The notes below the pieces were generated by a model, which did no database searches, had not been told where the DNA came from, and saw only the letters and a program-made list of their open reading frames with translations. From Microbacterium sp. (GTDB lineage: Bacteria > Actinomycetota > Actinomycetes > Actinomycetales > Microbacteriaceae), in assembly GCF_031178445.1 (NCBI RefSeq), contig NZ_JAPSIY010000002.1, forward strand, positions 310,001-374,000: 64,000 nucleotides of DNA, given 5' to 3'. This document shows, piece by piece, positions 24,460 to 36,091 of this stretch. Position 1 is the first letter of the stretch; every line of letters starts with the position of its first letter. Both the position numbers and the translations under genes were made by a program.

Positions 24460-25320
24460 GTGGGAGCCATCAAGGAGACGCCGATCCCGCTGGCGGTGCG
24501 GATCGAGCTGTGCCGCGCGGGCGTGCAGGTGATCGCCGACCGGCTCGGCATCCGGATGCTGCACATCAAGGGCACCACCGTCGACCGATCGATCCGCCCC
24601 AAGACACGCAACGGCAGCGACGTCGACATCATCGTGGATCCGGCAGCGGTGGGCATTCTGCACGAAGCACTGCTGGCGCACGACTGGCAGGTGTACAGCT
24701 CCTTCGAAGACGGCTCGCCGTTCGGCCACGCCCAGACGTACTGGAACAGCGACTGGGGCTACATCGACCTGCACCGCCGGTTCCCCGGCATCGGGCTCGC
24801 CGACGACAGCGCCTTCGAATTGCTGTGGGATCAGCACTCGACCGTGGTCGCGGCAGGGCGCGAGATCGCCGTGCCCTCCGTCACCGCACAAGCGGCGCTG
24901 TACGTGCTCAACGCGGCACGCGGCAGCACGAACGACCGGGCAGAGGCGCATCGTTTCCATCGCGCGCTGGCCGTCGATGAGCGCCTCAGACTGGACCTGC
25001 TGATCGACCGTCTGGACGCAGTGGTGGCCGCTGCCGTCGTCTCAGGGGAGTTGCAGCGGCACCGGCGGCGCGCTGAGTATCTGCTCTGGAAGACGGTCTC
25101 CGAGGGAGGGACCCGCACCCAGGAATGGTGGGGGAGGGTGCGCGCCGCGCGCTCGTGGCGTGAGGCGCTGCACATCATGATGCGGGCTCCGCGGGTGAAC
25201 CGCAGCAGGCTCGCGCACCAGCTCGGACATGCTCCTACTCGCCTCGACGTGTTCCGCGCCGCGATGACGCGGGCGCGCGTCGCGGTCGGGGAACTGCTGC
25301 CGCGAAGGAGCAGGGGATGA
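24460..25320 (+). CDS. Nucleotidyltransferase family protein (NTP_transf_5-like)
   Basis: 'GIRMLHIKGTTVDRSI...NGSDVDIIVDPAAVGILHEALLAHDW...WGYIDLHRRFPGIG' - nucleotidyltransferase-like DxD; paralog of 36167..37069. Confidence 0.72.
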   Translation: MGAIKETPIPLAVRIELCRAGVQVIADRLGIRMLHIKGTTVDRSIRPKTRNGSDVDIIVDPAAVGILHEALLAHDWQVYSSFEDGSPFGHAQTYWNSDWGYIDLHRRFPGIGLADDSAFELLWDQHSTVVAAGREIAVPSVTAQAALYVLNAARGSTNDRAEAHRFHRALAVDERLRLDLLIDRLDAVVAAAVVSGELQRHRRRAEYLLWKTVSEGGTRTQEWWGRVRAARSWREALHIMMRAPRVNRSRLAHQLGHAPTRLDVFRAAMTRARVAVGELLPRRSRG

Positions 25321-25535
25321 GCCGCCTCGTGCGGGCGGCGGACGTCGGCGCCGTCGACGACGGGTCCCGCATATACGCCGCTGTCCTGCCGGACGGGCCG
25401 ATCTTCGTGCTGGCCGACGATGCGGCCGAGGTCTGGCGGGCCGTCGAGCGGCGCGACGGCGACATCCCGGCAGCCGACGAGAACGTCGCGGCCCTCGTGC
25501 AGGCCGGGCTGCTCACACTCGAGGAGGACACCTGA
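25317..25535 (+). CDS. PqqD-like small protein
   Basis: 72 aa; 'YAAVLPDGPIFVLADDAAEVWRAVERRDGD...NVAALVQAGLLTLEED' follows the PqqD layout; overlaps upstream and downstream genes by ATGA-type junctions. Confidence 0.6.
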   Translation: MSRLVRAADVGAVDDGSRIYAAVLPDGPIFVLADDAAEVWRAVERRDGDIPAADENVAALVQAGLLTLEEDT

Positions 25536-26530
25536 TGCCCATGGCACTGACCATCACCCCCGCACTGATCGTCGCGGCCGTCCTGCTCGTCAGCGGAGTG
25601 GCCAAGCTGCGCACACCCGACGACGAGGCGGGGTGGACCGAACTGGGAGTTCCGGCAGCGCTGAGGCGTGGCTGGCTGATGCGGCTGCATCCGTTCGCCG
25701 AGATCGCGCTCGCCCTGGCGCTTGCACTGCTCGGCGGCGTCCTCGGCGTCCTCGCCGCCGTCGCCGCAACCCTGCTCTTCGCGGTGTACCTCGTGATGAT
25801 CTGGCGCGCCAGGAAGCAAACACCCGATGCCTCCTGCGCATGCTTCGGCGAGCGCAAGCCCATCACGGTGCGCACGCTGCTGCGCAACGGATGGCTGGTG
25901 CTGCTGTCGGGTCTGGCAGCGGCCACGATCGGCGTGAGCCCGCTCTTGGGCGGTGTTGTCGCTCTCGCCCTGCCGAATTGGAGCTGGCTGCTCGCGCTCG
26001 CCGCCGTCGCAGTGACGTTCGTGCTGGTGCATCAGCCCGCTCCGTCGGCATCCTCGCCGGACGACACGTCAGTGCCCGCACCGACGGCCGCGGATGATCT
26101 CGACGACTACATCCGCACTCGCACGCCGGCCGTGCCGGTTCAGCTCGGCGACGGCACCACCGTCAACCTGCGCACCCTCTCTGCGCGTGCGCCGATCCTG
26201 ATCCTCGCGGTCTCGGAGACGTGCGGTTCGTGCACGCCCGTGATCGAGAGTGCCGAGCATTGGCGGACCCTGCTTCCGGAGGTCTCCGTGCGGCTCCTGC
26301 TGCGTGCGACGCCTGAGCAGAGCACACTGACGAGCAGCGTGGAGCCGCAGACCCTGCATGATCCGCAAGGGTACGTGCGTGACTCGATCGCCGAGTGGCC
26401 CACACCCACAGCCGTGCTGCTGGGTGCCGACGGGCTTCTTGCCGGGGGGCCCGTCAGCGGCCACCCTGACATCCAGGAGTTCGTCGCCGACATCTACGAG
26501 TCCTTGCACGGCGTCCGGCCGCCCGTCTGA
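25535..26530 (+). CDS. MauE/DoxX-like membrane protein fused to thioredoxin-like (TlpA-type) domain
   Basis: 'LLVSGVAKLRTPDDEAGWTELGVP...HPFAEIALALAL...CACFGERKPIT' MauE-like; C-terminal 'ILAVSETCGSCTPVIESAEHW...TPTAVLLGADGLLAGGPVSG' redoxin with CGSC. Confidence 0.75.
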   Translation: MPMALTITPALIVAAVLLVSGVAKLRTPDDEAGWTELGVPAALRRGWLMRLHPFAEIALALALALLGGVLGVLAAVAATLLFAVYLVMIWRARKQTPDASCACFGERKPITVRTLLRNGWLVLLSGLAAATIGVSPLLGGVVALALPNWSWLLALAAVAVTFVLVHQPAPSASSPDDTSVPAPTAADDLDDYIRTRTPAVPVQLGDGTTVNLRTLSARAPILILAVSETCGSCTPVIESAEHWRTLLPEVSVRLLLRATPEQSTLTSSVEPQTLHDPQGYVRDSIAEWPTPTAVLLGADGLLAGGPVSGHPDIQEFVADIYESLHGVRPPV

Positions 26531-26566
26531 CCGCCACCGGATCGAGGGCGGGTCGCGACCGTCGTA

Positions 26567-26640
26567 CCACCATCGAACCGGCGCGCCACCATCGAACCGA
26601 CGTCGGTTGCTTGGTGGGGTGCGGGTTGCTTGGTGGCGCG
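26567..26640. repeat. 74-bp composite repeat, copy 1 (left of AbiEi-like gene)
   Basis: (CCACCATCGAACC)x2 followed by (GGTTGCTTGGTGG)x2; about 70/74 identical with 27788..27861, same orientation. Confidence 0.9.
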
Positions 26641-26734
26641 CGTTCCCTTCCACAGGCTTAGGGATTCGCGGCGGGATCCATCCGAGACTGTGGACAACGC
26701 GTCATGGGCGCTCCGGTAGGGGCAACGTGGACGG

Positions 26735-27769
26735 ATGGGGTCGAATCCACAGCCGCCGAAGCGCGCGATCACGCTGGCGGACGCCGAACGGATGCTGCGC
26801 TCGGCGGGCGATCTGCTTGCAGCAGGGGCGACGGAGCGCCGCATCCGTCAACGCGTGGCTGAAGGCGTTCTGGTGCGGATACGTCGCGGGCACTATGCGA
26901 CGGCCGAGGACTGGCGGCGCCTCTGGCCGGAGGGACGCCACCTGATGCGGGTACTCGCGGTCTGCCGAGACGCGGCGACTGCGCCAGTGCTCTCTCACGT
27001 CTCCGCCGCCGTGGTGCATGGGTTTCCGCTGTATCGGCTGGCTCCGACTCGCGTTCATGTGACCGTCCCGTCACCGTCGCATGCGGCGAGCGTCCCGGAT
27101 GTTCTGCGTCACGAACTTCCTCTCGACGACACCGATGTCGTGGAGATCGGCCCGTTTCGTCTGACCGGCTTGAACCGCACCGCGATCGACGTGGCGCGTA
27201 CCCTGCGGCTGGAGGCTGCGCAATCGATCGCGGATGCGGCGCTTCGGCGGGTGGCGGTCACGGGGCACCGACAGGATGCCGACGCCGCCGGCGTGTGGCG
27301 TGAAGATCTGCACTATCGCCTTGAGCGTCTGCGTGGACGTCCGGGCGTACGCCGGGCGCGCGATGTCGTGGATTTCGCCGACGGCCGGGCGCAGCTGCCC
27401 GGCGAGAGCGTGAGCCGATTGCGGCTGAGGAGGCTGGGGTTCCGCGAAGTGCAGCTGCAAGTCCCGGTGACGGGCCCGGGCGGGAACGAGTTCTTCATCG
27501 ACTTCGGACTCGACGAGATCGACGCCTACGGTGAGTTCGATGGAATGGGGAAGTATGTCGATCCCGTGCTCCGCGGCGACAAGCACATCGAGGAGACGGT
27601 GCTGAGCGAAAAGCGCCGGGCAGACTGGGTGCACGGCACGACCGGAAGACGGATGCTGCGCTGGGAGAGCGAGCACATCGCGACGGTCCATTCGTTCGCC
27701 GCGCGGCTCGCCGCGTTCGGCGTGCCTCTCACGTCGGACCTGCAGCTCGACCGTCGTCGGCTGCGCTGA
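26735..27769 (+). CDS. AbiEi-type antitoxin-like / DUF559-type endonuclease-like protein
   Basis: N-terminal wHTH-like 'LLAAGATERRIRQRVAEGVLVRIRRGHYAT' with 'VLSHVSAAVVHGFPLY'; C-terminal 'EFFIDFGLDEIDAYGEFDGMGKYV' nuclease-like pattern. Confidence 0.6.
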   Translation: MGSNPQPPKRAITLADAERMLRSAGDLLAAGATERRIRQRVAEGVLVRIRRGHYATAEDWRRLWPEGRHLMRVLAVCRDAATAPVLSHVSAAVVHGFPLYRLAPTRVHVTVPSPSHAASVPDVLRHELPLDDTDVVEIGPFRLTGLNRTAIDVARTLRLEAAQSIADAALRRVAVTGHRQDADAAGVWREDLHYRLERLRGRPGVRRARDVVDFADGRAQLPGESVSRLRLRRLGFREVQLQVPVTGPGGNEFFIDFGLDEIDAYGEFDGMGKYVDPVLRGDKHIEETVLSEKRRADWVHGTTGRRMLRWESEHIATVHSFAARLAAFGVPLTSDLQLDRRRLR

Positions 27770-27787
27770 GCGAAGAAAGCGCGCGTG

Positions 27788-27861
27788 CCACCATCGAACC
27801 GGCGCGCCACCATCGAAACCACGCCGGTTGCTTGGTGGGGCGCGGGTTGCTTGGTGGCGCG
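27788..27861. repeat. 74-bp composite repeat, copy 2 (right of AbiEi-like gene)
   Basis: Near-identical direct copy of 26567..26640 (4 mismatches by eye). Confidence 0.9.
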
Positions 27862-27899
27862 GGAACTGCAGTCGTCGTCGAGGACCGAGCGGCGGGACG

Positions 27900-29483
27900 T
27901 CAGTACGCGCCGCGGCCGCAGACCAGAGTGCGGAGGGTGCGCCAGAGGATGACCAGGTCACCGGTGAGCGACCAGTTCTCGACGTAGTAGAGGTCGAGTC
28001 GCACGCTGTCCTCCCAGGAGAGGTCGGAGCGGCCGCTGACCTGCCAGAGACCGGTTATTCCGGGCTTGACCAGCAGGCGACGCTGATCCCAGTCCTCGTA
28101 GTTCTCGACCTCGCTGAGCAACGGCGGGCGCGGGCCCACCAGCGACATATCGCCTCGCAGCACGTTCCACAGCTGAGGCAGTTCGTCCAGGCTGTGGCGG
28201 CGCAGGAAAGCGCCGATGCGTGTGACCCGCGGGTCACGACGCATCTTGAACAGCATCCCGTTGCCGTCGGAGAACTCGAGCAGGCCTTCGAGCATGTGCT
28301 CGGCGCCAGGCACCATCGACCGGAACTTCACCAGCCGGAACCGCCGTCCGTCCAATCCGATGCGTTCCTGGACGAAGAGCGCGGGACCGCCATCGGTACG
28401 CACGAGCACCGCGATCAGTGCCATCAGCGGCAGGAGAAGTAGGAGAGCGATCGCGGATGCTGAGATGTCGAAGGCGCGCTTGGTCGCGTACCGGATGCCG
28501 GTGAACTCGGTATAGTCCACATGGATGAGCGACAGACCCGCGACGGGCCGCGCGTGGATGCGCGGCCCGGCGATGTCGGTGAGCGCCGCGGCGACGATGA
28601 GGTCGATGCTTCGCGACTGCAGCTCCCAGCCGAACTGCCTCAGTCGAGGGGGAGAGATCAGATCGGAGCCGCTGTACACGACGGCGTCGGCACGGGCCGA
28701 CTCGATGGCCGGAAGCAGGGCGTCGAGGTCCCCGAGCACGGGAACGCCGGGAAGCAGCGTGCCCGAACCACGCTCGGTCACCGCACCGACGATCTGGTAG
28801 CCGACGGTGAGATCGCGCTGCACCTCACGGGCGATGTGCTGAGATTTCCCGTGCTCGCCCACCAGCACGACGCGGGTGAGGAAGCGGCCCTGAGCGCGTT
28901 GCGCCCTGAGCCAGCCGCGCCACAGCCACCGGCCGGCGATGAGAAGGACCACCCCCGCGGGCAGCGCGAGCAGCAGGTATGCCCGTGCGACTTCGATGTG
29001 CAGGAGGAATGCGGCGATCGTGAGGACCCCGAATACGCGGATGCTGGCATCGGCGATCCGACGGTACTCCTGCGTACCCGTTCCCACCGTCTTGGCGTCG
29101 CGTGTGCCGTAGCCGTGCAGCGCCAGAAGCCACGCGATCGCGAAGATCACCGAGACGAAGGTGTATCCGAGCGTGAAGCTGTCGCCGCTGAATCCCGGGA
29201 TGAACAGGCTCGCCCTGTCCTGCCCGAAGCGAAGCAGCTGCGCGCCGAATACGGCGGCGACGACGATCGCCACATCCGTGAAGAAGAGTCGTCGGCGGTA
29301 GGACGCGTGCCAGTCGTGCTCGATCGGAGCCGCGGTTGGCGCGGGCAACGCACGAAGTCGTCCATGACGGTTCAGTCGAGCGTTCCCCAGCGGCACGCCC
29401 AACGGTTCGGATACAACCACAACCCCTCCCCAGAGGATTGGTTCGAGACCTGTGTCGTGGTTGCGACCACGTTCACAGATCAC
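27900..29483 (-). CDS. Exopolysaccharide polyprenyl-glycosylphosphotransferase (priming sugar transferase)
   Basis: C-terminal 'KRAFDISASAIALLLLLPLMALIAVLV...FVQERIGLDGRRFRLVKFRSMV...RHSLDELPQLWNVLRGDMSLVGPRPP' bacterial sugar transferase; N-terminal TM block; real start may be internal. Confidence 0.92.
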   Translation of the reverse strand: MICERGRNHDTGLEPILWGGVVVVSEPLGVPLGNARLNRHGRLRALPAPTAAPIEHDWHASYRRRLFFTDVAIVVAAVFGAQLLRFGQDRASLFIPGFSGDSFTLGYTFVSVIFAIAWLLALHGYGTRDAKTVGTGTQEYRRIADASIRVFGVLTIAAFLLHIEVARAYLLLALPAGVVLLIAGRWLWRGWLRAQRAQGRFLTRVVLVGEHGKSQHIAREVQRDLTVGYQIVGAVTERGSGTLLPGVPVLGDLDALLPAIESARADAVVYSGSDLISPPRLRQFGWELQSRSIDLIVAAALTDIAGPRIHARPVAGLSLIHVDYTEFTGIRYATKRAFDISASAIALLLLLPLMALIAVLVRTDGGPALFVQERIGLDGRRFRLVKFRSMVPGAEHMLEGLLEFSDGNGMLFKMRRDPRVTRIGAFLRRHSLDELPQLWNVLRGDMSLVGPRPPLLSEVENYEDWDQRRLLVKPGITGLWQVSGRSDLSWEDSVRLDLYYVENWSLTGDLVILWRTLRTLVCGRGAY

Positions 29484-30331: not shown

Positions 30332-30477
30332 CGCCCGCCGGATCGCCTCAGCAAGGATGCCGCATGCGCGCCGACCGAAGTCGTAGAAGCCTTCGGCGAA
30401 GATATGATCGTCTTCGAAGCGCTGACGGTCGGGGCCGCGCGCTCACTGGGGATCTGGGGAGGTCCGTCTTGGGGAAC

Positions 30478-31344
30478 GTGATCGATGTCAGCGCTGTGCT
30501 GCGCCTGATCGGCGGCGATGGGGGCAGGCCCACGGCTGCGCGACGTCACCGCAGCATCCTCGTGACCAGCCACACCTTCGACGGCCGAGCCGATTGGATG
30601 TGGAATGCGCAGCCGGAAGGGGGTGACGCGATCGCAGGGCTGGCCTTCGCGGATGCTCCGCTGAGAGTGCGCCGGGGCGCGGACGTCGTGGAGATCGCCG
30701 TCGGGGAAGCGTCATTCCTGCATCCGCACCGTGCCGCGACCATTGAGACCGTCGCGCCGGGGACGGGTATGTCCGTCTGGCTGCCGTGGGATTCCCTTCA
30801 GGAGGTCGAGAACGGCGTGCAGACGCCCGGCCATGTCATGTCACCGACGCCACTGACCGCAGGGCTGAAAGCCTTTCTCACCTCCCTGCTCACTCAGCAG
30901 GAGACACCCACGCTGTACACCGACTATCTCGTCGAGCGCGTCGTCGTCGAGATGGCGTTCGGCGTGCTGCTCGAATCCGTGCCGAAGAACGTCAGCGGCG
31001 CCCGCGACTCTCGCTCCATCGACCGCGCACGTTCGCTGATGCTGCTGAGGCGATCCGACCCGGACTTCGGCGTGGCCGAGCTGGCCGGTGAGCTGCACAT
31101 CTCGACGCGGCATGTGCAGCGGCTCTTCGCCGCGGAGAACAGCTCGCCCGCCGATGAGCTGCGCGGCATGCGCATCGAGTTGGCGAACGAGCTGCTGGGT
31201 GATCCGGCCTACGATCCGCTGACTGTCGCAGAGCTTGCACTGCACGCCGGATTCAAGACGCCGGCAGCGCTGAGAAGAGCGTTCGCGAGCCGCGACCTGT
31301 CATTGCCCGATCGTGCGCGCCGGAACCGGGTGTCGACCAGCTGA
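30478..31344 (+). CDS. AraC-family transcriptional regulator
   Basis: C-terminal double HTH 'PDFGVAELAGELHISTRHVQRLFAAENSSPADELRGMRIELANELL...LTVAELALHAGFKTPAALRRAF'; GTG start. Confidence 0.82.
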   Translation: MIDVSAVLRLIGGDGGRPTAARRHRSILVTSHTFDGRADWMWNAQPEGGDAIAGLAFADAPLRVRRGADVVEIAVGEASFLHPHRAATIETVAPGTGMSVWLPWDSLQEVENGVQTPGHVMSPTPLTAGLKAFLTSLLTQQETPTLYTDYLVERVVVEMAFGVLLESVPKNVSGARDSRSIDRARSLMLLRRSDPDFGVAELAGELHISTRHVQRLFAAENSSPADELRGMRIELANELLGDPAYDPLTVAELALHAGFKTPAALRRAFASRDLSLPDRARRNRVSTS

Positions 31345-31486
31345 AGGCTGTTTCGCGACAGGTTCGGTGAAAAACGCGACATCTGCGTTGAGCGGTTCGT
31401 GAGCGTCCCCGGAGTATCGGACCGGTGCGGCGGCGACGCTGCACAGCACATTGAGTGCGACACCACTGGGAACGCAGCCGAGGGGC

Positions 31487-32098
31487 ATGAACATGAACGA
31501 GAACGAGAACGCGCGAGCACCGCGACACATCGACCGCCGCACCGTCGTCAAGGGAGCCGCATGGTCGGTGCCGGCGATCGCCGCCGCCGTGGCCATGCCC
31601 ATGGCGACCGCGTCGCAGAGCACCGCTCAGATCCGCATCTACGCCGACTGCCTGCTGAGCGTGGCGGGCGTCAACATCGGCCGCGGCTTCTTCGTAGAAA
31701 ATCAGGGCACCGTCGCCTATGACGGGAACATCACCGTCACCGAGACGATACGGCTTTCGGGCCTCGCGGCGGTGGCGGCCGTCGCGCTGTGGCCGATCCT
31801 CGCGGTGCAGGGCATCCTCGGCGGGTCGACCAGCGGCGTGACCAGGGGATCCTGGAGTGGCAACATCCTCTCCACGACCCGCTCGCGCACGGTGACCATC
31901 GCCGGACCCCTGGCCGCCGGCGGTCAGCGCAGCTGGGGAATCGCACTCGACGCGATCAGCGGCGTGCTCGGCGTCCTGGACCTGGTCGGCCTCGCGGGAA
32001 TCACCCACACCGCGGTCATCACGAGCCCGACCGGTAACCCGCCGGTGGTCAAGGACTCCGACGCGATCAACTGGGAGCTCATCTCCACCAGCTGCTGA
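31487..32098 (+). CDS. Small secreted protein with Tat-type leader
   Basis: MNMNENENARAPRHIDRRTVVKGAAWSVPAIAAAVAMPMATA; same leader type as 9087..9623 and 17343..17873. Confidence 0.7.
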   Translation: MNMNENENARAPRHIDRRTVVKGAAWSVPAIAAAVAMPMATASQSTAQIRIYADCLLSVAGVNIGRGFFVENQGTVAYDGNITVTETIRLSGLAAVAAVALWPILAVQGILGGSTSGVTRGSWSGNILSTTRSRTVTIAGPLAAGGQRSWGIALDAISGVLGVLDLVGLAGITHTAVITSPTGNPPVVKDSDAINWELISTSC

Positions 32099-32115
32099 GT
32101 TCGGCGCGAGCCGAA

Positions 32116-32147
32116 GACAGGGCCCCTTCCTCGGAGGGGGCCCTGTC
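32116..32147 (+). terminator. Hairpin terminator candidate
   Basis: GACAGGGCCCC-TTCCTCGGA-GGGGGCCCTGTC. Confidence 0.75.
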
Positions 32148-32249
32148 GCACGTTCAGCACCGGCATCGCGTCTGCGCGCGGCCGAGCAGCGTCCGACTGC
32201 TAGATTCAGAGGCACTGTTGCGTTGTCAAGACGAGGGGTACACACGCAC

Positions 32250-33776
32250 ATGGAGTTGAGGGATTACCTGCGCATCTTCCGTGCGCACTGGCTGGGCATG
32301 GCGCTCATCATCGTGGGCGCCGTGGTCGCAGCCTTCGGATGGACCCTCATCCAGCCCAAGGTGTACACCGCCGACGCCACCGCGATCGTCCGTGCGGCGG
32401 GCACCGAGGACCTCGGCATGGTCTCCCTCGGCAACAACATCGCGAACCAGCGGGTGAAGACTTACGTCGAACTCGGCTCGTCACGAGCCGTCGCCAACCG
32501 CGTGATCGAAGAACTGGCACTGAAGCAGTCTCCCGAGGCGCTCGTCGGGCAGGTGTCGGTCACCAACCCGCTCGACACCACCTCGCTTCAGGTCACCGCT
32601 GACGCATCGAGCCCCGAGCAGGCACGAGACATCGCGGAAGCATGGGTGCGCGCCATGTCGGCCGAGGTCAACGTCATCGAGACCGACGATGCTGCGACGC
32701 AGGGGGCCGTCTTCCTGCGCCCTGTCGACTCCGCGAGGCTGCCTAGCAGCCCGTCGTCCCCGAACACGCGGCTCGCGCTCGCGATCGGTGCTCTGGCCGG
32801 CCTCGCGCTCGCCGTCGGGTACGGTCTGCTGCGCTACACGCTCGATCGCCGCATCCGCTCGGTCGAATCGGTCGAGCGTGAAACCGGCGTCGCCGTGGTC
32901 GGTACCGTCCCCGAAGAGAAGACCTTCACACCGGACAACCGGCTCATCCCGTTCGACGGCGGCAACTCATCCGGCAGCGCCAACGCGCATCTCTTCCCGA
33001 TCGCGGAGGCGATGCGGGAGCTGCGCACGAACATACAGTTCATGGACGTCGACAACCCGCCGCGTGTGATGGTGGTCACCAGCCCGCTCCCCGGCGACGG
33101 CAAGTCGACGACCGCGTCCAACCTGGCGATCACGCTCGCGTCCAGCGGCCAGAAGGTGGCGCTGATCGACGGCGACCTGCGTCGCCCGATGGTCGACACG
33201 ATCTTCGGTCTGCCGAAGGGCGCCGGACTCTCCGACGTGCTCGCCGGCCGCGCCGAGCTCGCGGATGTGGCTCACCGCGTGGGCGGCAACGGCAGGCTGC
33301 TGGTGATCGGTGCGGGGAAGATTCCGCCGAACCCCAGTGAGGTGCTCGGATCTGCCCGCATGAAGGAGCTGCTTGAGGCGATCTCTCGCGAGGCGATCGT
33401 CATCATCGACGCGCCGCCGCTGGTGCCGGTGACAGATGCCGCCGTGCTCACGAACAGCGCCGACGGAGCGATCATCGTCGCGACCGTGGGTAAGACCACC
33501 TATGAGGTGCTGGGCAAGGCTCTCGGCAATCTCGAGCGCGCCGGCGCCCGCGCCCTCGGGATCGTGCTGAACAGGGTACCGCGCCGGGGCAGCGGAGCCG
33601 CGTATTACGGCTACCAGTACCACGGTGACTACTACCGGGCTGAGGAGCCCGAGACGCAGACTCCGCTCGCCGGCGCGGCCGACTTCGTCGCACGACTCGG
33701 CAACAGCGACCCGTCAGACGTCGAGGCCGTCGACGCGAACGGGCCGCGCCGCCGTAGCACGCACCGGTCGTCGTGA
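32250..33776 (+). CDS. Chain-length determinant / BY-kinase fusion, second copy
   Basis: 'MELRDYLRIFRAHWLGMALIIVGAVVAAFGW'; 'SPLPGDGKSTTASNLAITLA', 'LIDGDLRRPMV', 'VIIDAPPLVPVTDAAVL'; paralog of 11285..12913. Confidence 0.9.
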   Translation: MELRDYLRIFRAHWLGMALIIVGAVVAAFGWTLIQPKVYTADATAIVRAAGTEDLGMVSLGNNIANQRVKTYVELGSSRAVANRVIEELALKQSPEALVGQVSVTNPLDTTSLQVTADASSPEQARDIAEAWVRAMSAEVNVIETDDAATQGAVFLRPVDSARLPSSPSSPNTRLALAIGALAGLALAVGYGLLRYTLDRRIRSVESVERETGVAVVGTVPEEKTFTPDNRLIPFDGGNSSGSANAHLFPIAEAMRELRTNIQFMDVDNPPRVMVVTSPLPGDGKSTTASNLAITLASSGQKVALIDGDLRRPMVDTIFGLPKGAGLSDVLAGRAELADVAHRVGGNGRLLVIGAGKIPPNPSEVLGSARMKELLEAISREAIVIIDAPPLVPVTDAAVLTNSADGAIIVATVGKTTYEVLGKALGNLERAGARALGIVLNRVPRRGSGAAYYGYQYHGDYYRAEEPETQTPLAGAADFVARLGNSDPSDVEAVDANGPRRRSTHRSS

Positions 33777-34816
33777 ACGACTTCGTCGACATCGACGTGC
33801 TCGGTGTTCGGATTCGAGTCGAGTACGCAGACGATCTTGACTCGTCGCAGCGCCGCACGGCATCGGACGCATGGTCCGGAGCCAGGAGCGAAGGCGTCGG
33901 CGAGGCGGATCTCAGCAGGACGTTCTCTGCAGGCGCGGACTTCGAACGGGCGATGGAACGGCTCACCGTCGACGTGACCCTGTCGGCGTTGGACGCGCTC
34001 CGCGGCCGAGCGCTGATGTTCCACGCTGCCGGCGTCGCCGACGAATCGGGGCGGGTGGCCGCCTTCGTCGGACCCTCCGGGCGCGGCAAGACCACACTCA
34101 GTCGCGAGCTGGGGCGCCACTGCGGATACGTCTCGGACGAGACCATCGCCGTCGACGCCGAGCTGAACGTCTTCCCCTATCGCAAGCCGCTGTCCGTGGT
34201 GCGCGCCGCGAAGCCGAAGCAGCAGGTCTCACCGGACGAGGCGGGGCTGCGAGGGCTGCCCCAGGCGCCGTTGCGGCTCGCGTCTCTGGTGCTGATCGAG
34301 CGGGACGCCGCGCTGTCGGCACCCGAGATCGCGCCGCTGCCGCTCGTCGACGCGCTGCCCGAACTCGTGCCGCAGATGAGCTACCTGCGTGACCAGGAGC
34401 GTCCCCTGCGCGCGATCGCGGTGCTCTGCGACGCCATAGGCGGCGTGCGCAGGCTGCGATACCCGGAAGCTGCCACGGTGCCCCCTCTGCTGCCGGAGCT
34501 GTTCGCGACGCCTCCGACGGTCCATGAGTGGCAACCGGCACCCACCCCCGCCGAGTCAGGACCCTACGACGCCTCCGGAGTCGACGACGCCATCCTCACC
34601 GACGGGCACGTGATCGTGATGGCGCACTCGATGTTGCACGTGCTCGACGGCATCGCACCTGTCGTATGGACCGAAGCGGCGGCGGGGCGGGATCTCGACG
34701 GCATCGTCGACGTCGTCGTCGAGCAGCACGGAGCTCCGCCGCAGGGCAGCGCTCACGAACTGGTCGCCGCGGCCGTCGACGAGCTCATCGACGCCGGAGT
34801 GCTGAGCCGCCGCTGA
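33773..34816 (+). CDS. HprK-like kinase domain with C-terminal PqqD-like module
   Basis: 'VAAFVGPSGRGKTTLSRELGRHCGYVSDETIAVD' HPr-kinase-like P-loop; C-terminal 'DGHVIVMAHSMLHVLDGIAPVVWTEAAAGRDLDGIVDVV...VAAAVDELIDAGVL' PqqD-like. Confidence 0.7.
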   Translation: MNDFVDIDVLGVRIRVEYADDLDSSQRRTASDAWSGARSEGVGEADLSRTFSAGADFERAMERLTVDVTLSALDALRGRALMFHAAGVADESGRVAAFVGPSGRGKTTLSRELGRHCGYVSDETIAVDAELNVFPYRKPLSVVRAAKPKQQVSPDEAGLRGLPQAPLRLASLVLIERDAALSAPEIAPLPLVDALPELVPQMSYLRDQERPLRAIAVLCDAIGGVRRLRYPEAATVPPLLPELFATPPTVHEWQPAPTPAESGPYDASGVDDAILTDGHVIVMAHSMLHVLDGIAPVVWTEAAAGRDLDGIVDVVVEQHGAPPQGSAHELVAAAVDELIDAGVLSRR

Positions 34817-34834
34817 CGCCCGACGCGCCAACGG

Positions 34835-35731
34835 TCACCCAGCAGCCCCGGACTCCGCCCTCCTCAGCTCGGTCGGCGAGGGGGAGCCCTCCGCCTGAAG
34901 CGCCCGTCGAAGCTGGAGCGCCGAGGTGAACCCCGCGTACCGGGAGACCTCATCGACGGTCAACCCGGAGTACAGCGGATTGCGGAGCATGGATTCGGCC
35001 AGCTCCACCCGCATCCGCCTCAGCAGATCACCGGGGGTGACACCGGCGCGGGCGAACGCGCGCTGCAGCTGGCGAGGCGAGATGTGCAGCTCGGCGGCGA
35101 GCTGCGGGGTCGAGAACGCAGGATCCTCTCTGCGCATCAGCATCACCGATCGCGCTCGCTCGATCAGCGAGCTGGGACGCTGTGCGGTCTCGACGGACTG
35201 CTGTTCCACAAGCGAGCCGAACGTCATCTCCGCGAGCAGCCGTTCGATGGCGTACCTCGACATCGATGAGCCGTCGTCAGCGTGCCGCACGACCGCCTGC
35301 GCGAACGTGCGGAAGCCGATGGTCAGGGGAGAGGCGTAGAGCACGGTGGCATCCGGCATCCCACCCTCCGTGAACTCCTGAAGCAGCGGTGCGGGCACCC
35401 ATATCGCAAGCACCTCGGAACCGTCCTCCCAGTCGAGGACCTGCTCGGCATGCGGTGGGAGGAACAGGCCGAGCGGTGCGGGATGTCCCGGCCGCGCGGT
35501 GGCGGTGGGGACCGGCCGACCTTCCGCGGAGAAGAGCACGCCCGCGTGCGGCGCCGCCGAGGCCGAGGTCGAAGAGTACGGGCCCTGCGGGCGCCAGCCC
35601 CACGCGGCGTCACGGACGCGGTGATAGGTGACGGTGATCGACCTGAAGGTGCGCGCGGCGACGAGCCCTGCGGCATGGGTGGGAACACCCAGGTGCGCAG
35701 AGAGCAGGGAGGCGACGCTCGTACGTGACAT
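34835..35731 (-). CDS. AraC-family transcriptional regulator, paralog of 30478..31344
   Basis: 'PAFSTPQLAAELHISPRQLQRAFARAGVTPGDLLRRMRVELAESML...LTVDEVSRYAGFTSALQLRRAL'. Confidence 0.82.
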   Translation of the reverse strand: MSRTSVASLLSAHLGVPTHAAGLVAARTFRSITVTYHRVRDAAWGWRPQGPYSSTSASAAPHAGVLFSAEGRPVPTATARPGHPAPLGLFLPPHAEQVLDWEDGSEVLAIWVPAPLLQEFTEGGMPDATVLYASPLTIGFRTFAQAVVRHADDGSSMSRYAIERLLAEMTFGSLVEQQSVETAQRPSSLIERARSVMLMRREDPAFSTPQLAAELHISPRQLQRAFARAGVTPGDLLRRMRVELAESMLRNPLYSGLTVDEVSRYAGFTSALQLRRALQAEGSPSPTELRRAESGAAG

Positions 35732-35753
35732 AGTGGGGGACGACGTTGGGGGA

Positions 35754-35771
35754 CAGCGGCGATCGCCGCTG
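35754..35771. promoter_or_regulatory. 18-bp perfect palindrome between divergent araC-like and pqqD-like genes
   Basis: CAGCGGCGATCGCCGCTG. Confidence 0.55.
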
Positions 35772-35803
35772 GCAAGCCGCGAATACTCGCTAGGCTACCA
35801 ATC

Positions 35804-36091
35804 GTGACTGGGTGGGGGAACACGGCGGTGCGCGTATCGGATGCTGTCGCGTGGACATCGGGCGAATCCCGCGTCGTCGCGATGGACATGACGACGCCGG
35901 GGGCGGCGCCGCTCATCCTCGAGGCCAGTGCCGCTGTGATCTGGGAGGAGATCGCGGCAGCGGGGCCGATCCCCACGGACGAGCTGCTCGATCGGCTGGC
36001 TGCGCTGTTCGACGTCGCCGAAGACGACATCCGCGGTGATGTCGAGAAGCTGATCGCCGACCTGGTCGCACGCAATCTGCTCGCGGCGTGA
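35804..36091 (+). CDS. PqqD-family protein
   Basis: 'APLILEASAAVIWEEIAAAGPIPTDELLDRLAALFDVAEDDIRGDVEKLIADLVARNLL' PqqD pattern. Confidence 0.8.
   Translation: MTGWGNTAVRVSDAVAWTSGESRVVAMDMTTPGAAPLILEASAAVIWEEIAAAGPIPTDELLDRLAALFDVAEDDIRGDVEKLIADLVARNLLAA

Follow-up and report, generated by a model that had tools for sequence, protein, structure and literature searches.

An AbiEi-like nuclease gene and its palindromic repeats in Microbacterium: a candidate REPIN/RAYT-like system

The window analyzed here, a 64,000-nucleotide stretch of the Microbacterium sp. genome G000, contains a gene for an AbiEi-like protein with a nuclease domain, bracketed by two near-identical composite palindromic repeats (Table 1). 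Matched flanking repeats are associated with the protein family in Microbacterium and in distant members of the phylum Actinomycetota, and the repeat sequence differs from one group of homologues to another. We consider it probable (about 0.6) that the unit in the window belongs to a REPIN/RAYT-like system, the AbiEi-nuclease recognizing its own repeat family and probably also spreading or maintaining it. The enclosed protein itself is the likely partner of the repeats, a role missed in the earlier note on this DNA, and the bracketed cassette is one member of a phylum-wide system rather than a pair of terminators.

Table 1. Features of the repeat-gene unit and its neighbors (window coordinates)
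Feature	Position	Strand	Remarks
MauE-like membrane protein, neighbor outside the unit	25535..26530	+	Also the neighbor in G321 and G198
Upstream composite palindromic repeat	26563..26640	.	Four 13-nt units with a 19-nt period: two direct, then two inverted
AbiEi-like winged helix + PD-(D/E)XK (Vsr-like) nuclease gene	26735..27769	+	344 aa
N-terminal winged-helix region, residues ~14-56	26774..26902	+	Model elements, AbiEi fold match, Pfam AbiEi_4 at residues 24-55
C-terminal nuclease region, residues ~205-315	27347..27679	+	Structure model, matches to Vsr (1cw0) and R2 endonuclease, invariant residues
Downstream composite palindromic repeat	27784..27861	.	Identity of 94% with the upstream copy
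Bacterial sugar transferase of the glycan locus, neighbor outside the unit	27900..29483	-	Pfam

The bracketing elements and the enclosed protein

The two elements are 78 nt long each, lie in the same orientation and are offset by 1221 nt. The 74-bp copies described previously (26567-26640 and 27788-27861, about 70/74 identical) were thus correct and are extended here, and the AbiEi/endonuclease-like gene is confirmed as the only gene between them. The units are represented by CCACCAnnnAACC and similar sequences. The composition of two plus two units given in the earlier note holds for the presence of four units per element but not for their uniformity, since the second unit of the downstream element is the imperfect CCACCATCGAAACC as against the perfect CCACCATCGAACC. 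Across the 64-kb window, GGTTGCTTGGTGG is present exactly 4 times, each time inside one of the two bracketing elements. The same distribution was found for CCACCATCGAA, also with exactly 4 occurrences, compared with approximately 1 in shuffled sequences. Folding of the two elements as single-stranded DNA gave z-scores of -2.7 and -4.7. The mismatched 3-nt stem loops of the G000 elements were rejected as a general feature, the elements of the genome G321 being almost completely paired.

Exact occurrences of the unit TGCTTGGTGG elsewhere in G000 are located within genes and were attributed to chance, and almost all matches in a degenerate two-unit pattern scan of the genome contigs were likewise chance ones. 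No Rfam family matched the window repeats, and a search of positions 26400-28000 for T-run terminators returned none.

The AbiEi_4 match of the enclosed protein in Pfam is weak (E 6e-4, below the cut-off), whereas PADLOC gave a clear AbiEi match (5e-12) that labels the N-terminal part. The AlphaFold2 model of the protein (pLDDT 94, pTM 0.90) resembles the structures of AbiEi and Rv2827c (Foldseek: AbiEi 6y8q, E 4e-5; 1zel, E 7e-4). Foldseek also matched the Vsr endonuclease 1cw0 (probability 0.96) and the endonuclease of the R2 retrotransposon; we read these matches as probably belonging to the C-terminal domain. Seven residues (E224, D256, E267, D269, G270, K273, and Y274) are invariant across 43 homologues, and this is the pattern of an intact PD-(D/E)XK-type site. 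A Pfam search of the enclosed gene and 42 homologues revealed only AbiEi matches and one weak match to AAA_28, with no known transposase family among them.

No AbiEii nucleotidyltransferase is adjacent to the gene; its two neighbors had no PADLOC match, and no other defence partner was found beside it. The glycan locus around the unit (24460-25320 and 30364-36091) includes a nucleotidyltransferase of the NTP_transf_5 family, two AraC-type regulators (HTH_18), a Wzz/ParA-like chain-length protein, and a PqqD-like protein; together they form the gene complement of a peptide or modified-glycan cluster. The NTP_transf_5 gene (24460-25320) is located outside the repeat-gene unit, in a region shared with the genome G014, which lacks the unit.

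Matched flanks and repeat specificity among homologues

Homologues of the gene were found in 26 of 30 Microbacterium genomes. For each homologue, 320 nt of upstream sequence were compared with 320 nt of downstream sequence, and a score of at least 22 was counted as a match. Matched flanks were found for 40 of the 43 Microbacterium homologues (median score 39), in contrast to a median of 15 and a 95th percentile of 20 for 231 control genes (p 1e-15). Only 9 control genes (~4%) reached 22, and several of these proved to be homologues themselves, open reading frames called antisense to homologues, or genes with dispersed elements on both sides. Among 28 more distant loci, taken from a 150-genome sample across the phylum and encoding proteins mostly of 26-38% identity, 18 scored above 22, which was the maximum of 756 cross-pair controls. 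No matched pair was detectable for the remaining 3 Microbacterium and 10 distant homologues. For Tsukamurella, two of three loci have matched flanks, with scores of 60 and 83 (NZ_LR134451.1 and NZ_LR134465.1), and no flanking pair was seen at the third. The homologue in NZ_LR134451.1 (Tsukamurella tyrosinosolvens, WP_074851054.1) is annotated as "type IV toxin-antitoxin system AbiEi family antitoxin domain-containing protein". At one Microbacterium locus (L224 in G031), the flanks on both sides of the gene have grown to approximately five tandem copies of a ~40-nt unit.

The repeat sequence follows the protein. When the upstream flank of one homologue was compared with the downstream flank of another, a design that removes shared position as an explanation, similarity rose with protein identity (rho 0.23; none of 2000 permutations as high), the median score being 15-16 below 50% identity and 50 above 70%. 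The same specificity is visible within single genomes. Three further homologues of the window gene are present in G000, with 62, 32, and 32% identity; the first is bracketed by a different repeat sequence (unit GACCACGnnnTTC) with the architecture unchanged, while each of the two more distant ones has yet other repeats on its flanks. At least two homologues are found in G160, with repeats from two separate families, both of which are dispersed in that genome. In the traced cases, each repeat family of a genome was accompanied by a single copy of the gene.

A search for homologues in phage gave no matches, and among plasmid records only three were matched, all from Tsukamurella. These records (NZ_LR134451.1, NZ_LR134465.1, and NZ_LR134463.1) are listed as plasmids, but carry core genes (tatB and pdxS) and look like chromosome pieces. 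The scarcity of phage and plasmid matches speaks against a role in defence, in which the nuclease would attack foreign DNA and the host repeats would serve as recognition, storage, or protection sites. Such a role would agree with the PADLOC label of the N-terminal part and with the Vsr-like nuclease, but the lack of an AbiEii or other defence partner and the specificity of the repeats to each homologue make it very improbable.

Dispersed copies and turnover of the repeats

The earlier note had suggested a genome search for more copies of the 74-bp repeat, and more were indeed found, some enclosing other genes. Five elements of the window family are present in G000: the window pair, a single element at C14:231748, and a pair at C10:127187/129111. 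The C10 pair (L007:5188-7181; G000:C10:127187-129180) brackets a gene for an SdrD/carboxypeptidase-regulatory-like surface protein on the minus strand. The members of each pair resemble each other (94 and 87%) more than they do the remaining copies. A covariance-model search of 369 Microbacterium genomes detected the window family in 10 of them, G321 having approximately 12 strong sites and G198 having 11. A window-family pair again brackets a homologue of 57-63% identity in G321, G198, and G160. Window-type repeats occur in G224 and G067 without a detected cognate gene; thus, the repeats can persist without the gene. Pyrimidine-rich CCCTCCC tracts recur next to the elements (L197:4580-4660; flanks in L209, L216, L218, L222, and L226).

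Other families are dispersed as well. The second family was found at approximately 14 sites in G126, 6 in G160, and fewer elsewhere, mostly where related genes are present, and is missing from 22 of the 30 genomes. The contigs of the draft genome G126 stop at repeats (the end of C9 at 720957 and the start of C5), which probably means that the repeats interrupt assemblies and that counts from draft genomes are too low. Within approximately 1.0 Mb searched in the distant genome G464, one family occupies 21 sites, a different one 4, and shuffled queries gave none. One Tsukamurella family is present at 12 places in six records, the best match in each record overlapping no annotated feature; another occupies three places in one record only. 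Copy numbers range from ~5 to 20 sites per genome, with perhaps 40 in G464. These numbers are lower than those of REPs, which usually exceed 100 copies, a point against a REPIN/RAYT-like reading.

Elements of the window family are nearly all intergenic, as judged by our own simple gene calls, in which at least one of six apparent intragenic cases is a miscall. By the same calls, the dispersed copies favor convergent gene ends (16/29 vs. 46/207, p 4e-4) and seldom lie between divergent promoters (2/29). Covariation within the hairpins is modest and the core CCACCA hardly varies, which suggests that the half-sites in duplex form may be more important than hairpin formation.

These distributions bear on two regulatory explanations. 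The main rival to a REPIN/RAYT-like system holds that the repeats are operator arrays and the protein is a regulator, which would control its own gene by way of the upstream repeat and other genes by way of the dispersed ones, with another role for the nuclease. There is precedent in Rv2827c of Mycobacterium tuberculosis, a protein of the AbiEi fold that autoregulates by binding four inverted repeats (PMC7319586), and the four half-sites per element and the conserved core sequence agree with it. The matched copy that nearly all homologues carry on the downstream side, the invariant nuclease residues, and the preference for convergent gene ends over divergent promoters speak against a regulator of this type; on balance, we regard this explanation as unlikely. 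The second explanation, bidirectional terminators (offered in the earlier note) or insulators around the gene, would fit the strong hairpins at gene 3' ends. We find it barely credible: besides the missing T-run, the repeat sequence tracks the protein, differs between paralogues of one genome, and is dispersed away from the gene. The repeat is not a simple terminator unrelated to this gene family, and the gene is not fixed in all relatives.

The history of the locus was followed by comparing related species. A homologue is found at the identical position of the syntenic glycan locus in G000, G321, and G198. An empty site was found in the relative G014: here the repeat-gene unit is absent from the glycan locus, and only 3 nt separate the DUF4012 gene from the MauE gene. 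In G160, the unit is located at an unrelated locus. Empty sites for the single G000 element on C14 were found in G002, G022, and G005, and an empty site for one G198 element was found in G000, all in comparisons between species too diverged for the reading of precise insertion boundaries or target duplications. The two flanking repeats are 94% identical to each other in G000, 87% in G321, and 79% in G198, whereas the flanking repeats at the same locus are only 71-79% identical between species. Pairs are thus more alike within a genome than orthologous copies are between species, which suggests homogenization.

The elements also mark changes in gene content. One G198 element (L197:4660-4730) corresponds to two G321 elements (L193:5105-11079) that enclose 5.9 kb of extra metabolic genes; this difference is a repeat-bounded gain or loss of cargo. 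A gene for a pyruvate-oxidase-like (TPP) enzyme is bracketed by repeats in G198 and G224 and adjacent to a repeat in G067 (L195:5067-7032, L202:4959-7298, and L207:4799-8470), and in these regions the alignment blocks stop, and the changes in gene content begin, at the elements. Taken together, the empty sites, the cargo differences, and the likeness within genomes point to probable turnover, homogenization, and recombination at the repeats, as opposed to static operators.

An autonomous insertion element could account for part of this pattern, the repeats being its ends, the solo repeats its MITE-like non-autonomous relatives, and the nuclease a transposase, of a type not described before, by which the entire unit is moved. 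The uniform size of the unit (~1.2 kb), its absence from G014, and its different location in G160 agree with such an element. The occurrence of just one gene copy for each repeat family of a genome, in the traced cases, and the shared locus in G000, G321, and G198, which looks like long vertical residence, argue against it, and we consider it improbable. The mobilized cassette proposed in the earlier note is retained in part. The gene and its repeats do form a unit, which is absent in G014, and repeat-bounded cargo does differ between species; a one-off cassette moved by an outside transposase is not upheld, since nearly all homologues carry their own, different repeats.

Relation to known repeat systems and a proposed mechanism

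To our knowledge, RAYTs are the dedicated enzymes of REP-type repeats. In REPIN/RAYT systems, a vertically inherited single-copy chromosomal gene is flanked by repeats and copies a repeat population (PMC8049555, PMC3116915, PMC3733652). The AbiEi-nuclease genes share several features with these "REPtrons" of REPIN/REP sequences and RAYT (TnpA-REP) genes: a single chromosomal gene with private palindromic repeats on its two sides, repeat families specific to each paralogue, dispersed intergenic copies, tandem clusters, and orphan repeats after gene loss (PMC3116915, PMC3733652, PMC8049555). The protein, in contrast, combines an AbiEi fold with a PD-(D/E)XK nuclease and is not a Y1/HUH transposase, and the elements are ~70-110 nt long, with four units at 19-nt spacing, and occur in Actinomycetota. 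The GTAG tetranucleotide located at one end of the palindrome in REPIN/RAYT systems is not present in the element sequences. No Y1/HUH transposase (PF01797) was found in 16 Microbacterium genomes, five control genomes being positive, and a RAYT as the partner of the repeats is thereby excluded. CGTC REPs, which have no dedicated transposase (PMC3733652), are similar as short palindromic repeat families without a Y1 partner; in the present case, however, a candidate partner protein is identified.

Two further comparisons concern the protein. The AbiEi N-terminal fold, and with it the precedent for binding of inverted-repeat arrays, is shared with AbiE type IV toxin-antitoxin systems, from which the window gene differs by the missing AbiEii partner, the extra C-terminal nuclease, and repeats located on both sides and genome-wide. 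The fold of the C-terminal domain is shared with PD-(D/E)XK endonucleases of the Vsr and R2 retrotransposon types, from which the window nuclease differs by its fusion to an AbiEi-like DNA-binding part and its link to a cognate repeat family. By the defining features tested, the system is not a RAYT system, an AbiE toxin-antitoxin pair, a known insertion sequence, or a terminator pair. Its organization is REPIN/RAYT-like, and its protein class and element architecture are unrelated to REPIN/RAYT. For this reason, and because no description of an association between AbiEi-nucleases and palindromic repeats was found in the searchable open-access literature, we take it as a new kind of system.

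We propose a two-part system, consisting of a chromosomally encoded protein in which an AbiEi-fold DNA-binding part is joined to a Vsr-like nuclease, and of palindromic repeats that form one family. The winged-helix part would recognize the cognate repeats, either as four half-sites at 19-nt spacing or as the hairpin that they form, and the nuclease would nick or cut there; for the binding step, Rv2827c provides a precedent. Repair or copying at the break could then spread, homogenize, or maintain the repeat family, and the repeats may double as recombination points for the gain and loss of neighboring genes. More broadly, and tentatively, at somewhat less than even odds, the AbiEi/PD-(D/E)XK proteins across Actinomycetota may be a new class of enzymes that copy palindromic repeats via nuclease-triggered repair, each protein being paired with a repeat family of its own. 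They would then be a second evolutionary answer to the REPIN/RAYT arrangement, unrelated to the first and concealed by the name "AbiEi family antitoxin". Since homologues use different repeats, often in one genome, specificity and copying are directly testable by swapping pairs.

If true, systems consisting of an enzyme and a private repeat population would have arisen more than once, and the AbiEi-nucleases would provide an independent test of how such enzyme-repeat systems persist. Additionally, dispersed actinobacterial palindromes would have a cause, and the annotation of many so-called antitoxin genes would be corrected.
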